Source: Planctomyces sp. SH-PL62 (GTDB lineage: Bacteria; Planctomycetota; Planctomycetia; Isosphaerales; Isosphaeraceae). Taken from it: a DNA stretch of 64,000 nucleotides. A model generated the notes under the pieces. It was not told the origin of the DNA. It did no database searches and worked only from the letters and a program-made list of their open reading frames with translations. Shown here piece after piece: positions 6,526 to 21,102 of this stretch; position 1 is the stretch's first letter; each line of letters starts with the position of its first letter. The stretch is taken from NCBI RefSeq assembly GCF_001610895.1, contig NZ_CP011273.1, positions 6,262,001 to 6,326,000 on the forward strand, read 5' to 3'. Position numbers and translations under genes: made by a program.

Positions 6526-7356
6526 TCAAGGCTTGCGGAAGTATTCATTCATGATCGCGACCAGTTCGTCGTGGACGAGGCCGTTGGAGGCGAGCACGCC
6601 GTCCTTGCGGAGGGTGAGCGGGTCGCCGTGGCAGTTGGTGACGCGGCCCCCGGCCTCCTCGACGAACAGGCGGCCGGCGGCGAAGTCCCAGGGGGCCAGC
6701 TCGTACTCGAAGAACGCGCCGAAGGAGCCGACGCCGACGTACGCCAGGTCGAGCGTCGCGGCCCCCAGGCGCCTCAGCCCGTGGCTCCGGCGGCGGAGGA
6801 TCTCGGCGCAGGCTTCGAGCGTGGCCTCCATCATGGCCCCCCGGTCGTAGAAATAGCCGAAGCCGACGAGGACCTCGTCCAGCCGCGCGCAGGGCGACAC
6901 CCGCGCCCGACGCCCCCGGTGGAACGCCCCCCCACCGCGGACGGCCGTGTACCAGTCGTCGTACAGCGGGTTGCCGACCACGCCGACGGTCGCGTCCCCC
7001 TTGTGGTAGTAGGCGACCGAGACGCCGAAGTGGGGGATGCCGTGGACGAAGTTGCTGGTCCCGTCGATCGGGTCGACGATCCAGACGTCCTCGCTGGCGA
7101 GGATCGCCGCGCCCTCGCCGCCGTCCCCCTGCCCTTCCTCGCCGTAGATCGCGTGGCCGGGGAACGCCTTCTTGATGACCTCGACGACGGCCCGCTCGGC
7201 CTCGACGTCGGCCCGGGTGACGAGGTTGTAGGTCCCCTGCCCCTCCGCGTTCTTGACGTCCGCCGCCAGCCCGCCCCGGAAATATCCCGTCGCCACCGCG
7301 CCCCCCGCCTTCGCGGCGGCCTCGGCGACCTCAAGCTCGGCCTTCCACCTGTCCAC
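6526..7356 (-). CDS. Inositol monophosphatase family protein
   Basis: Mg2+-dependent sugar-phosphate or inositol-phosphate phosphatase of about 276 residues, the usual size. It has the metal-binding GEEG motif, motif A WIVDPIDGTSNFVHG (near residues 92-106) and motif B WDFAAGRLFVEEAGG near the C-terminus. The substrate could be inositol-1-phosphate, fructose-1,6-bisphosphate or PAP; family motifs do not separate these. GTG at 7356 is preferred because GGGAGGGG ends 9 bases upstream; the GTG at 7365 lies too close to that site, and the open frame further up has no family similarity. It is a single gene convergent with the sirtuin, and upstream lies a repeat-rich non-coding field. Confidence 0.9.
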   Translation of the reverse strand: MDRWKAELEVAEAAAKAGGAVATGYFRGGLAADVKNAEGQGTYNLVTRADVEAERAVVEVIKKAFPGHAIYGEEGQGDGGEGAAILASEDVWIVDPIDGTSNFVHGIPHFGVSVAYYHKGDATVGVVGNPLYDDWYTAVRGGGAFHRGRRARVSPCARLDEVLVGFGYFYDRGAMMEATLEACAEILRRRSHGLRRLGAATLDLAYVGVGSFGAFFEYELAPWDFAAGRLFVEEAGGRVTNCHGDPLTLRKDGVLASNGLVHDELVAIMNEYFRKP

Positions 7357-7541
7357 GAGTCTCACCCCTCCCAACGCCCCGGACCCCTCGCCACGCCGCC
7401 CATTATACCGACCCGCCGCCCTTCGCGTTCCGAAGACCGAATTGGCTTCGATCGGCTCCGTTCGACCACCCGGCCGCCGGGCGTGAATCGTCGGATCCCC
7501 TTTTAGAGAAGGACTGTTACGAACACCTCGCCGTCCCCCGA

Positions 7542-8116
7542 ATTGGCTTCGTTCGGCGCTTTTCATGAGACTCCTCACTCAACTCCACCGAGTCCTGACG
7601 GAAGGCCCTGGGGTGCCACGGGTTCCCTGAACCCGTGGACCGGCCGGGGATTCGGACGACGGCTTGGGACCGGCCCGACGCCGATCCACGGGTTCAGGGA
7701 ACCCGTGGCACCCCGACCCCGCTTGAAGCGGTGGAGTGAAGTGAGGAGTCTCCTTTTCGTGTTCTCGTCCCCCTCATGTTCCTGGTTGGCCCGCCGATCC
7801 GCGTTTGGCTTCGCTCGCACCGCCTCGAAATCGAACCCATCGGCTGCAAAGTCTTACCCGCAAGACATCTACAACCAGAAAACTGCCCCCGCGATTGGCT
7901 TCGTTCGGCGCTTTTCGTGCTCTCGCTCCCCTCAGGTTCCAGATCCGGCCTCTGATTCGCGTTTGGCTTCGCTCGATCTCCCTCGAAATCGAACCCATCG
8001 GCCGCAAACCCTTAACCACAAGACATCTACAACTAGAAGACCGCCCCCGCGATTGGCTTCGTTCGGCGCTTTTCGTGTTCTCCGTCAGGATCGTCGGACG
8101 CCCGTCCCGTCGGCCC
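7542..8116. repeat. Tandem/dispersed repeat field, 158-bp unit
   Basis: Two head-to-tail copies of a 158-bp unit start at 7801 and 7959 (both begin GCGTTTGGCTTCGCTCG). A 22-base segment is exactly repeated at 7542, 7894 and 8052. A third, older copy is split by the MITE-like element at 7564-7752, its right part resuming at 7753-7800. The region 7366-8237 holds no convincing gene: short open frames exist on both strands but they follow the repeat phase and have poor codon bias. It lies between the inositol-phosphatase gene and the paralogous membrane-protein pair. Confidence 0.75.
7564..7752. mobile_element. 189-bp MITE-like palindromic element with target-site duplication
   Basis: Non-coding element with terminal inverted repeats: 7567-7590 pairs with 7728-7752 (22 of 24 positions match). 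An inner, near-perfect inverted repeat spans 7610-7714 (GGGGTGCCACGGG and complement), so the whole element can fold into one long hairpin. It sits inside a copy of the local repeat. The 9-base CTTTTCATG at 7559-7567 is echoed as CTTTTCGTG at 7753-7761, and uninterrupted copies of the host repeat have CTTTTCGTG once, which looks like a target-site duplication. A diverged relative lies at 20855-21035. It encodes no transposase, so it would need one in trans. Confidence 0.75.
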
Positions 8117-8237
8117 GAGCGCGCGCCGTCCCCGCCGCCCGAATCGGCAAGGACCTCCAGGTAACAATGGATAGGAATGCGCGATGGGGACTCGAAATCC
8201 GGGCGAACGCGCGGAATCCTCGGCGGGCGTCTCGACC

Positions 8238-8711
8238 TCAGGGCGCGTCGGGAAGCAGACCGGCGCCCGGGAGCCGGACGACCTCGTATCGCCAGCCGCG
8301 ATCGCGGTAGTCCCGGAGCAGGCGGTCGAGCCAGGGGAAGAGGAGTTCGGAGTCATAGGTCTCGACGCGGATCGGCGCGAGGGCGGACGCGTGGTTGGCG
8401 CCCGACACGGTCACCCGGATCAAGGGGCGTCCCCGGCGGTCGAAGTCCTCCCAGGCTTCGAGGTGGTCCGTCCATCGGCTCGCGGCGTCAGGGCCGTAGA
8501 CCACGCGAAACCAGGGCGAGGCGCGACCGGCCGCAGCGATCTCCTCACGGGCCCGCTCCATGACCGACCGGGTCACCAGCCGCTGCAGACTCAGGGCGTC
8601 CTGGCGCGCCTGCCAGCGTCGCAGGTGGACCGCCGTCGCGGCCAGACATGCGAGGAGCACCACCGTCCCCGTCAGGCCGAGCACCGTGAAGCGGAAGCGG
8701 GGCGTTCGCAT
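8238..8711 (-). CDS. Small membrane-anchored protein, paralogue of next gene
   Basis: Not recognised. 157 residues: a single N-terminal membrane segment (about residues 9-26, FTVLGLTGTVVLLACLAA) and a soluble part of about 130 residues, probably outside the membrane. The C-terminal block (ALAPIRVETYDSE, PWLDRLLRDYRDRGWRYEV, VRLPGAG) is almost shared with the gene at 8759-9247, so the two arose by tandem duplication. The ATG at 8711 is preferred over 8762 because the shorter form starts directly before the membrane segment and lines up with the paralogue. It is the last of a possible minus-strand run 9728-8238. Confidence 0.7.
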   Translation of the reverse strand: MRTPRFRFTVLGLTGTVVLLACLAATAVHLRRWQARQDALSLQRLVTRSVMERAREEIAAAGRASPWFRVVYGPDAASRWTDHLEAWEDFDRRGRPLIRVTVSGANHASALAPIRVETYDSELLFPWLDRLLRDYRDRGWRYEVVRLPGAGLLPDAP

Positions 8712-8758
8712 CGTCGCGCCTCGTTTCGGGAGGTTCGATTCGTGGGGCTGTTCCGACT

Positions 8759-9247
8759 TCATGGCGTCTGGGGAAGCCGACCGGCGCCCGGGAGCCGGAC
8801 GACCTCGTAGCGCCAGCCGCGTTCGCGGTAGGCCCGGAGTAGGCGGTCGAGCCAGGGGACGTCGGACGGCGAGCCAAAGGTCTCGACGCGGATCGGCGCG
8901 AGCGCGGACGCGAGTCGGCCGTTGGAGCCCGACAGGATCGCGCGGTGCGCGGCGGGCCGTCGACCGTCGCGATCCTCGCGGCCGACGACTTCGAGCCGCC
9001 AGTCGGCCGTCCGGCCGGTCCCGGCGTCGCGGACGACGAAATCCGCCGCCGGATGCGCGGCCGCGGCGAGGTCCCCTCTCGCCGCCTCAAGGAGCAACAA
9101 CGATTCGTCCCGCTGCCGATACATCTCGACCCGGCGGGCCTCCCAGTTCCGAAGGTGGACGACGAGGGCGAGGCACCAGGCGACCAGGGCCACGGCGAGC
9201 ATCAGGCCGAGGATCGACGAACGGCGGCGGGGCGTCGGCATGGTCAT
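8759..9247 (-). CDS. Small membrane-anchored protein, paralogue of preceding gene
   Basis: Not recognised. 162 residues with one membrane segment (about residues 11-30, SILGLMLAVALVAWCLALVV), a short charged/coiled stretch (NWEARRVEMYRQRDESLLLLEAARGDL) and the same C-terminal block as the paralogue (ALAPIRVETFGS, VPWLDRLLRAYRERGWRYEV). The divergent middle and conserved ends suggest duplication followed by drift. The ATG at 9247 has GGGAG about 7 bases upstream; a second ATG at 9241 is possible. The gap to the SnoaL-like gene is only 16 bp, which suggests co-transcription. The all-membrane pseudopilin-like topology (short N-terminus, one helix, soluble domain) is only a resemblance. Confidence 0.72.
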   Translation of the reverse strand: MTMPTPRRRSSILGLMLAVALVAWCLALVVHLRNWEARRVEMYRQRDESLLLLEAARGDLAAAAHPAADFVVRDAGTGRTADWRLEVVGREDRDGRRPAAHRAILSGSNGRLASALAPIRVETFGSPSDVPWLDRLLRAYRERGWRYEVVRLPGAGRLPQTP

Positions 9248-20758: not shown

Positions 20759-20854
20759 GCCGTCGTTCTCATCCCGAGAGGAGACGCCCGCCGGGCCGGC
20801 TTCGCGCCGCCCCTCGCCGCAGTGCGGCCGTTCCCCTCGATCTTACCAAAACTT

Positions 20855-21035
20855 AACTCCAGCGAGTTCCGGCGGAATCCCTTCGGGTGCCACGGGTTCT
20901 CCGAACCCGTGGACCGGCCGGGGATTGGGACGACGGCTCGGGACCGGCCCCACGCCGATCCACGGGGTCGGAGAACCCGCGGCGCCCCGATCGCCGTCCG
21001 CCGCCCCCCTTGAGGTGGCGGTGTTCCGTGAGGAG
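20855..21035. repeat. Diverged copy of the 189-bp palindromic element
   Basis: The core 20884-20998 repeats the inner part of the element at 7564-7752: GGGTGCCACGGGTT, the conserved loop ACCGGCCGGGGATT, GACGACGGCT and the returning arm ending GGCGCCCC. Flanking arms (AACTCC at 20855, GTGAGGAG at 21028-21035) also correspond but are decayed. It occupies the 344-bp gap between the glucan synthase start and the PDZ-protein stop, where it could also act as a terminator-like hairpin for neither or both genes. No gene is seen in the gap. Confidence 0.75.
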
Positions 21036-21102
21036 CGTCGGAGGCGACGACCGACGGATCGGGACCGGGCCTCCTCGTCGGCGGGAGATCGCCTCGGTCC
21101 CG

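Follow-up and report, generated by a model that had tools for sequence, protein, structure and literature searches.

A palindromic miniature element at the edge of an intergenic repeat in Planctomyces sp. SH-PL62 and its probable ISL3-like parent

Known miniature elements and repeat-targeting insertion sequences

MITEs that share their ends with an insertion sequence and are bordered by target duplications are well known in bacteria, MITEAba12 being one example (available portion of PMC6382973). The element described here resembles the MITEAba12 type, as that portion portrays it, in being short and gene-less, in having inverted repeats in common with an insertion sequence, in duplicating a target of its parent's size, and in landing in AT-rich targets. 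It differs in that the duplication is 8 bp rather than 9 bp, the core is a long, GC-rich palindrome, no helper was found in the genome, and some of the copies sit in another repeat. REP elements, in turn, are known targets of insertion sequences such as ISPsy8, ISPa11, ISPpu9, and ISPpu10 (PMC1525189, available in part). Here too, mobile DNA is found in a multi-copy extragenic repeat, but the unit is about 117 bp long, the insertions fall on its outer margin, and some but not all of the copies are located there. Planctomycetes are themselves reported to have REP families, with GTAG or CGTC tags (PMC3733652).

The DNA analyzed, hereafter called the window, is the 64,000-nucleotide stretch at positions 6,262,001 to 6,326,000 of contig NZ_CP011273.1 of strain SH-PL62. 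The strain has a genome of 6.785 Mb, with a chromosome of 6.507 Mb and four plasmids (Table 1 of PMC5352709, available in part), and the assembly searched contains 6,784,659 bases in 5 contigs, the largest being 6,507,102. The main text of that genome report, as far as it was available, makes no mention of “transpos,” “insertion sequence,” or “MITE.”

What is the palindrome in this window? It is very probably a MITE derived from an ISL3-like insertion sequence, moved by a helper acting in trans and inserted into an 8-bp, mostly AT-rich target that is duplicated in the process. An orphan miniature element is in this way connected to a probable parent through three features, namely (i) the ends, (ii) the size of the duplication, and (iii) the transposase, together with an orthologous empty site. 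The analysis also exposes a large Paludisphaera repeat family whose edges attract the element. In the literature searched, which took in few subscription papers and not ISfinder, no report of either the MITE family or the 117-bp repeat was found.

Structure of the element and its copies

The MITE copy is a long near-palindrome of 186 bp at 7567 to 7752 (plus strand), delimited by an inverted-repeat scan, genome BLAST, and folding. The first-pass annotation had drawn a 189-bp palindrome from 7564 to 7752; its right boundary stands, but the start moves inward, as bases 7564 to 7566 belong to the target. The 22 of 24 matching positions that it had counted between the terminal repeats were recovered by the inverted-repeat scan (92% over 24 bases) for the left terminal inverted repeat at 7567 to 7590 (plus strand; GAGACTCCTCACTCAACTCCACCG) and the right one at 7729 to 7752 (minus strand). 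Further inside are two arms of 35 bp each, at 7610 to 7644 (plus strand) and 7680 to 7714 (minus strand), which match at 97% and each contain one hairpin, the left arm holding CCACGGGTTC-CCT-GAACCCGTGG. All 76 places listed for the inner hairpin fall, by their coordinates, within copies of the MITE family. Folded as single-stranded DNA, the 186-bp element reaches -80.5 kcal/mol (z = -12.37), and 0 of 200 shuffles did as well. The element contains no transposase gene, for which 186 bp is too short, and the ORFs that overlap it are mechanical calls. An Rfam scan of 7300 to 8200 returned four matches, all of them to microRNA models on the palindrome and all below gathering scores (best E value, 1.4e-6); these were taken for chance fits to a hairpin.

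A genome search of the kind that the first-pass annotation had proposed gave 31 copies, the window copy included, in which one terminal repeat or both can be recognized, and many of them have independent flanks with matching 8-mers. Whole-genome BLAST produced 89 matches at E <= 10, a number that includes hits to either strand of the palindrome. From these, 39 loci were fetched, and 29 (L009 to L037) have at least one terminal match with up to 3 mismatches in 13; the window copy and L061, which was found through the end pattern, complete the 31. Left out of the count were 10 of the 39 loci, L038 to L047, which are hairpin-only or weak matches (L045 has a single end match with 3 mismatches). 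The 26 two-ended copies range from 86 to 439 bp, with 12 at 197 to 200 bp and 6 at 125 to 129 bp, and the closest to the window element is L009, which is 97% identical. A search of the plasmid collection, which may omit records close to the window's genome, gave no match.

The window itself contains a second, degraded copy at 20841 to 21039 (plus strand). Its left end is eroded, and its start is a manual estimate based on the inner terminal bases; at this copy, no target duplication was recognized. It lies directly upstream of the start of a 2133-aa ORF (20758, minus strand).

An 8-bp target duplication

The window copy is bordered by CTTTTCAT at 7559 to 7566 and CTTTTCGT at 7753 to 7760 (both plus strand), identified by comparing flanks across copies and agreeing at 7 of 8 positions. 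The flanking letters quoted in the first reading, CTTTTCATG and CTTTTCGTG, are exactly those of the sequence, but the 9-base duplication deduced from them must be shortened to 8 bp, because the ninth base on the left is the element's own first G. Across the 26 two-ended copies, mean flank identity likewise peaks at 8, being 0.79 at k=8 versus 0.45 at k=7 and 0.46 at k=9. Flanks match at 7 or more of 8 positions in 16 of these copies and exactly in 6, against a mean of 0.92 copies at that level, and never more than 6, in 2000 shuffled flank pairings. The test covers the two-ended copies, the remaining 5 of the 31 (L012, L016, L026, L028, and L033) lacking one recognizable end. At the other extreme, 5 of the 26 (L009, L014, L020, L030, and L032) match at 5 of 8 positions or fewer; the duplications of L009 and L030 fit after a one-base shift, and comparison of the flanks found no convincing duplication at L014, L020, or L032. 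The duplicated targets have a GC content of 45%, versus 71% for the window.

The intergenic repeat that serves as target

The DNA into which the element inserted is unit 1 of an intergenic repeat (7440 to 7566, plus strand, placed by unit alignment), and the 16-base end motif of this unit, TTGGCTTCGTTCGGCG at 7543 to 7558 (plus strand), abuts the duplicated target. Units 2 (7802 to 7918) and 3 (7960 to 8076), both on the plus strand and both placed by alignment and profile match, are uninterrupted and 90% identical to each other. The first-pass annotation had described the element as interrupting a repeat unit. The left flank is indeed the 3' end of a unit, but a diverged one, 59 to 62% identical to the right-hand units, with about 26 bp alike by eye.

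The repeat has a near-constant length of about 117 bp and a diverged sequence. Its layout begins with ATTGGSTTCGWTCG, followed some 25 to 30 bases on by its inverted counterpart CGAA.GAASCCA, then CGCAA, and then ATTGGSTTCGTTCGGCG with a T-run. A model built from 29 units, chosen among those seen, and scored on at most 150 candidates in each genome, has at least 136 matches at E <= 0.001 in the window's genome, at least 134 in Paludisphaera soli (G003), and at least 130 in G005, with at least 57 in G001, 39 in G002, and 25 in G004 (Planctomycetales bacterium 71-10). Sites for the 16-base motif, allowing one mismatch, number 118 in the window's genome, 138 in P. soli, and 61, 36, 4, and 2 in the other four genomes of the genus. 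Outside the genus there are 113 in G023 and 45 in G025, the control giving 0 to 6 per genome. A stretch of G025, which belongs to another genus of the family, contains 16 motif-like 16-mers at a spacing of exactly 24 bp (G025:C1:3705557-3705932).

Could the unit encode a structured RNA? Rfam gave no match at E <= 1 on the repeat units within 7300 to 8200. For the 117-bp unit, the paired share of cells is 86.2%, versus 22 to 53% when the partners are slid, but shuffles equal this share in 42 of 500 cases and match the covariation score in 28 of 500. Because shuffles so often score as high, no RNA structure is claimed. Beyond the array, neighboring reading frames without a Pfam match have a stretch of 106 bp in common (8233 to 8338 and 8754 to 8859) at 91% identity, perhaps through local duplication or conversion.

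A possibly preferred base at the 3' end of the repeat

In 5 of the 31 copies (the window copy, L009, L018, L026, and L061), the element starts exactly 8 bp past GGCG, so placed that the 8-mer beside it abuts the 16-base motif. The same base is used in 4 of the 19 P. soli copies fetched (L064, L075, L076, and L093). These 19 consist of 14 from a BLAST list of 27 matches, both strands counted, and 5 more, and further copies may exist; L153, which was found by going to the orthologous locus, stands outside the count. Also left out of the hot-spot count is L020, an ambiguous case with 3 mismatches and no duplication, while some untidy copies are included, namely L026 (one end), L064 (no matching duplication), and L075 and L076 (eroded ends). 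By eye, the five copies in the window's genome are independent: each has a different member of the repeat on its left, and past the target the right flanks, available for four of them, differ from one another. At L064 (G003:C116:73150-73896), the MITE copy at about 73450 to 73648 sits between two 117-bp units, at 73330 to 73446 and 73649 to 73763 (minus strand), with almost no other DNA. L020 resembles this arrangement, again without a matching target duplication.

Is this more than a liking for AT-rich DNA? We infer a preference for the 3' end of the 117-bp repeat over and above what its AT-richness would bring. A bolder proposal is that the repeat, which has the direct motif TTGGSTTCGTTCG at its bounds and contains an inverted copy, serves as a platform on which the ISL3-like MITE family lands site-specifically, at one exact base and independently in at least two species. 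Our confidence in this proposal is evenly divided. If it is true, the repeat would be recognized either by the transposase itself or through a host protein bound there. A simpler explanation is that AT-richness alone produces the hot spot, the 3' end of the repeat being one of the few T-runs in a GC-rich genome, and we consider this possible, though on the doubtful side. It accords with the 45% GC of the duplicated targets, and among 12 insertion-sequence flank pairs from other genomes the motif abuts the element in none, although motif sites are scarce in most of those genomes (for L110, the right end is a guess and a weak motif match lies 32 bases off). What it does not readily explain is why 5 of the 31 copies in this genome, and 4 of the 19 from P. 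soli, should use a single base 8 bp past a 16-base motif, when at other copies the T-run has a different phase within the target. With every insertion restricted to TTTTC/GAAAA sites, the chance of at least 5 in 31 would still be 2e-4 to 5e-3, a range that assumes 45 to 80 unit ends and the site density of the window and comes from a test framed after the pattern was seen. Against the preference, 26 of the 31 copies in the window's genome are located away from this base. Should the preference for the repeat edge prove real, it would provide a natural system for the study of target choice by an ISL3-like transposase.

The orthologous locus in related genomes

The gene flanking the array, a member of the inositol monophosphatase family (6529 to 7353, minus strand; Pfam and protein match), serves as a marker for the orthologous locus, with a best match of 71 to 100% identity in each of the six genomes of the genus, the window's own included. 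The genus to which the window's genome, P. soli, and 71-10 belong is probably Paludisphaera. By eye, the repeat adjoins this gene in 5 of the 6 genomes. In P. soli, the same intergenic stretch contains three repeat units, the first of which continues through GGCGCGTTTCTC without an element, so the empty site for which the first-pass annotation had suggested looking is found in a sister species. The second P. soli unit has a different, degraded MITE copy at the matching base, with 8-mers CGCTCTGG and CGCTTTCG agreeing at 6 of 8 positions. G001, G004, and G005 each have one unit-like stretch beside the gene with no element adjoining (by eye), followed in G004 by a run of N further on, and in G002 no repeat unit was seen by eye beside the gene.

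The repeat units and the element are separate things. Which came first? The three-unit array of P. soli occupies the same locus and lacks this insertion, so the insertion is probably the younger of the two. The first reading had likewise placed the insertion after the tandem duplication began; its argument, drawn from the window alone, was weak, and the P. soli array is a better footing for the conclusion.

A candidate parent and its transposase

A search of genome contigs with the pattern of the ends (in IUPAC code) returned 8 stretches, 4 from P. soli and 4 from Planctomycetales bacterium. One contig of the congener 71-10, L080, carries a near-complete 1.46-kb insertion sequence, which has GAGACTCCTCACTTAAATCCACC on one side and is cut off by the contig edge 4 bases before its other end; another 71-10 contig, L082, has such an end complete. 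The 23-bp ends of the window copy, the first 23 bases of the left repeat and the right repeat alike, differ from the L080 end at 2 positions and from the L082 end at 1. By eye, the MITE and the insertion sequence are alike only across the terminal 23 to 26 bases or so. The L080 element's own duplication is unseen because it is cut at contig ends, the L080 and L082 ends being on different contigs with unlike flanks.

The 440-aa product of L080 matches the Pfam model DDE_Tnp_ISL3 at 49.5 bits (cut-off, 23), and this model is matched by 6 of 6 transposases at E <= 0.01. Against the NCBIfam ISL3 equivalog, the L080 transposase scores 58 bits, under the cut-off of 180. The ISL3 model matches all six proteins (best E value, 5.7e-23), but the IS256 model does so as well (best, 5.2e-17), as do Mutator/IS256 models, and IS66 is also hit. 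The transposase is therefore named ISL3-like rather than ISL3, since it falls under the NCBIfam cut-off and Mutator/IS256 models match too. ISL3 family members have ends that start with GG and duplicate 8 bp of target. The ends found here start with GA(G/C)ACT instead, whereas the duplication agrees: of 11 flank pairs from full-size candidates, 7 have an exact 8-bp duplication, L131 matches at 7 of 8 positions and L119 at 6 of 8, and L108 and L109 have none. The 8-bp duplication of the MITE thus fits an ISL3-like parent. Among the six aligned transposases, which are 50 to 60% identical to the first, D149, D203, and E392 are invariant and are presumably the catalytic residues; an HQLC.FH stretch and an NN.VER that includes E392 are also shared. 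A PDB profile search with the alignment gave no match at E <= 0.1.

Matches to the transposase, some of them weak, occur in 17 of 59 genomes, the window's own included. The only matches in the window's genome are two transposase fragments; the ISL3 DDE domain has 0 matches there at E <= 0.001 (control positive in 4 of 14 genomes), and no working helper transposase was found in this one assembly. The first-pass annotation had suggested looking for a full-length transposase gene with matching ends; a near-complete element of this kind is present in a congener, and the window's genome has fragments only. As far as one assembly can tell, the helper has probably died out in the window's genome, and we infer that it was lost later, leaving the fragments found. 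L062 (G000:C3:44500-49500) is a fragment of an ISL3-like element, with an IS701-family transposase gene (359 bits; cut-off, 150) some 0.1 kb away.

How the element would have moved

In the mechanism that we propose, a full-length relative would supply the DDE transposase in trans, this transposase would bind the shared GA(G/C)ACTCCTCACT... ends and move the element, and the element would enter a mostly AT-rich 8-bp target that would be duplicated. The ISL3-like lineage is the likely mobilizer. Might another transposase family with similar ends, IS66-, IS256-, or Mutator-like, have moved the MITE instead? The matches of the transposase to models of all three kinds, together with the lack of any ISL3 DDE domain match in the window's genome, speak for it, but the full-size elements recovered here with such ends encode the ISL3-like protein, and this makes it improbable. 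Still less probable is a palindrome of the REP/REPIN type moved by a single-strand HUH (RAYT) transposase. Such an origin would suit the strong inner hairpins and the multi-copy state, but not the 8-bp target duplications or the long terminal repeats nearly shared with a DDE insertion sequence. To our knowledge, HUH elements of the REP/REPIN kind make no target duplication. That unequal tandem duplication, at what is admittedly a repetitive locus, created the flank repeat around an old hairpin with no insertion at all is scarcely credible, given copies with unrelated flanks and matching 8-mers and an orthologous site that is empty. The MITE-like insertion with target duplication that the first-pass annotation had recognized is upheld by the copies with independent flanks, the near-identical ends in relatives, and the empty site in P. 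soli.

In 71-10 (G004), L083, L084, L087, and L088 have GAGAGTCCTC-type ends and, where read (L083 and L088), different cores; they may represent further MITE families or belong with elements of the same transposase group. One-ended loci (L083, L085, L088, L092, and L093) were read by the end search plus the first 240 bases.
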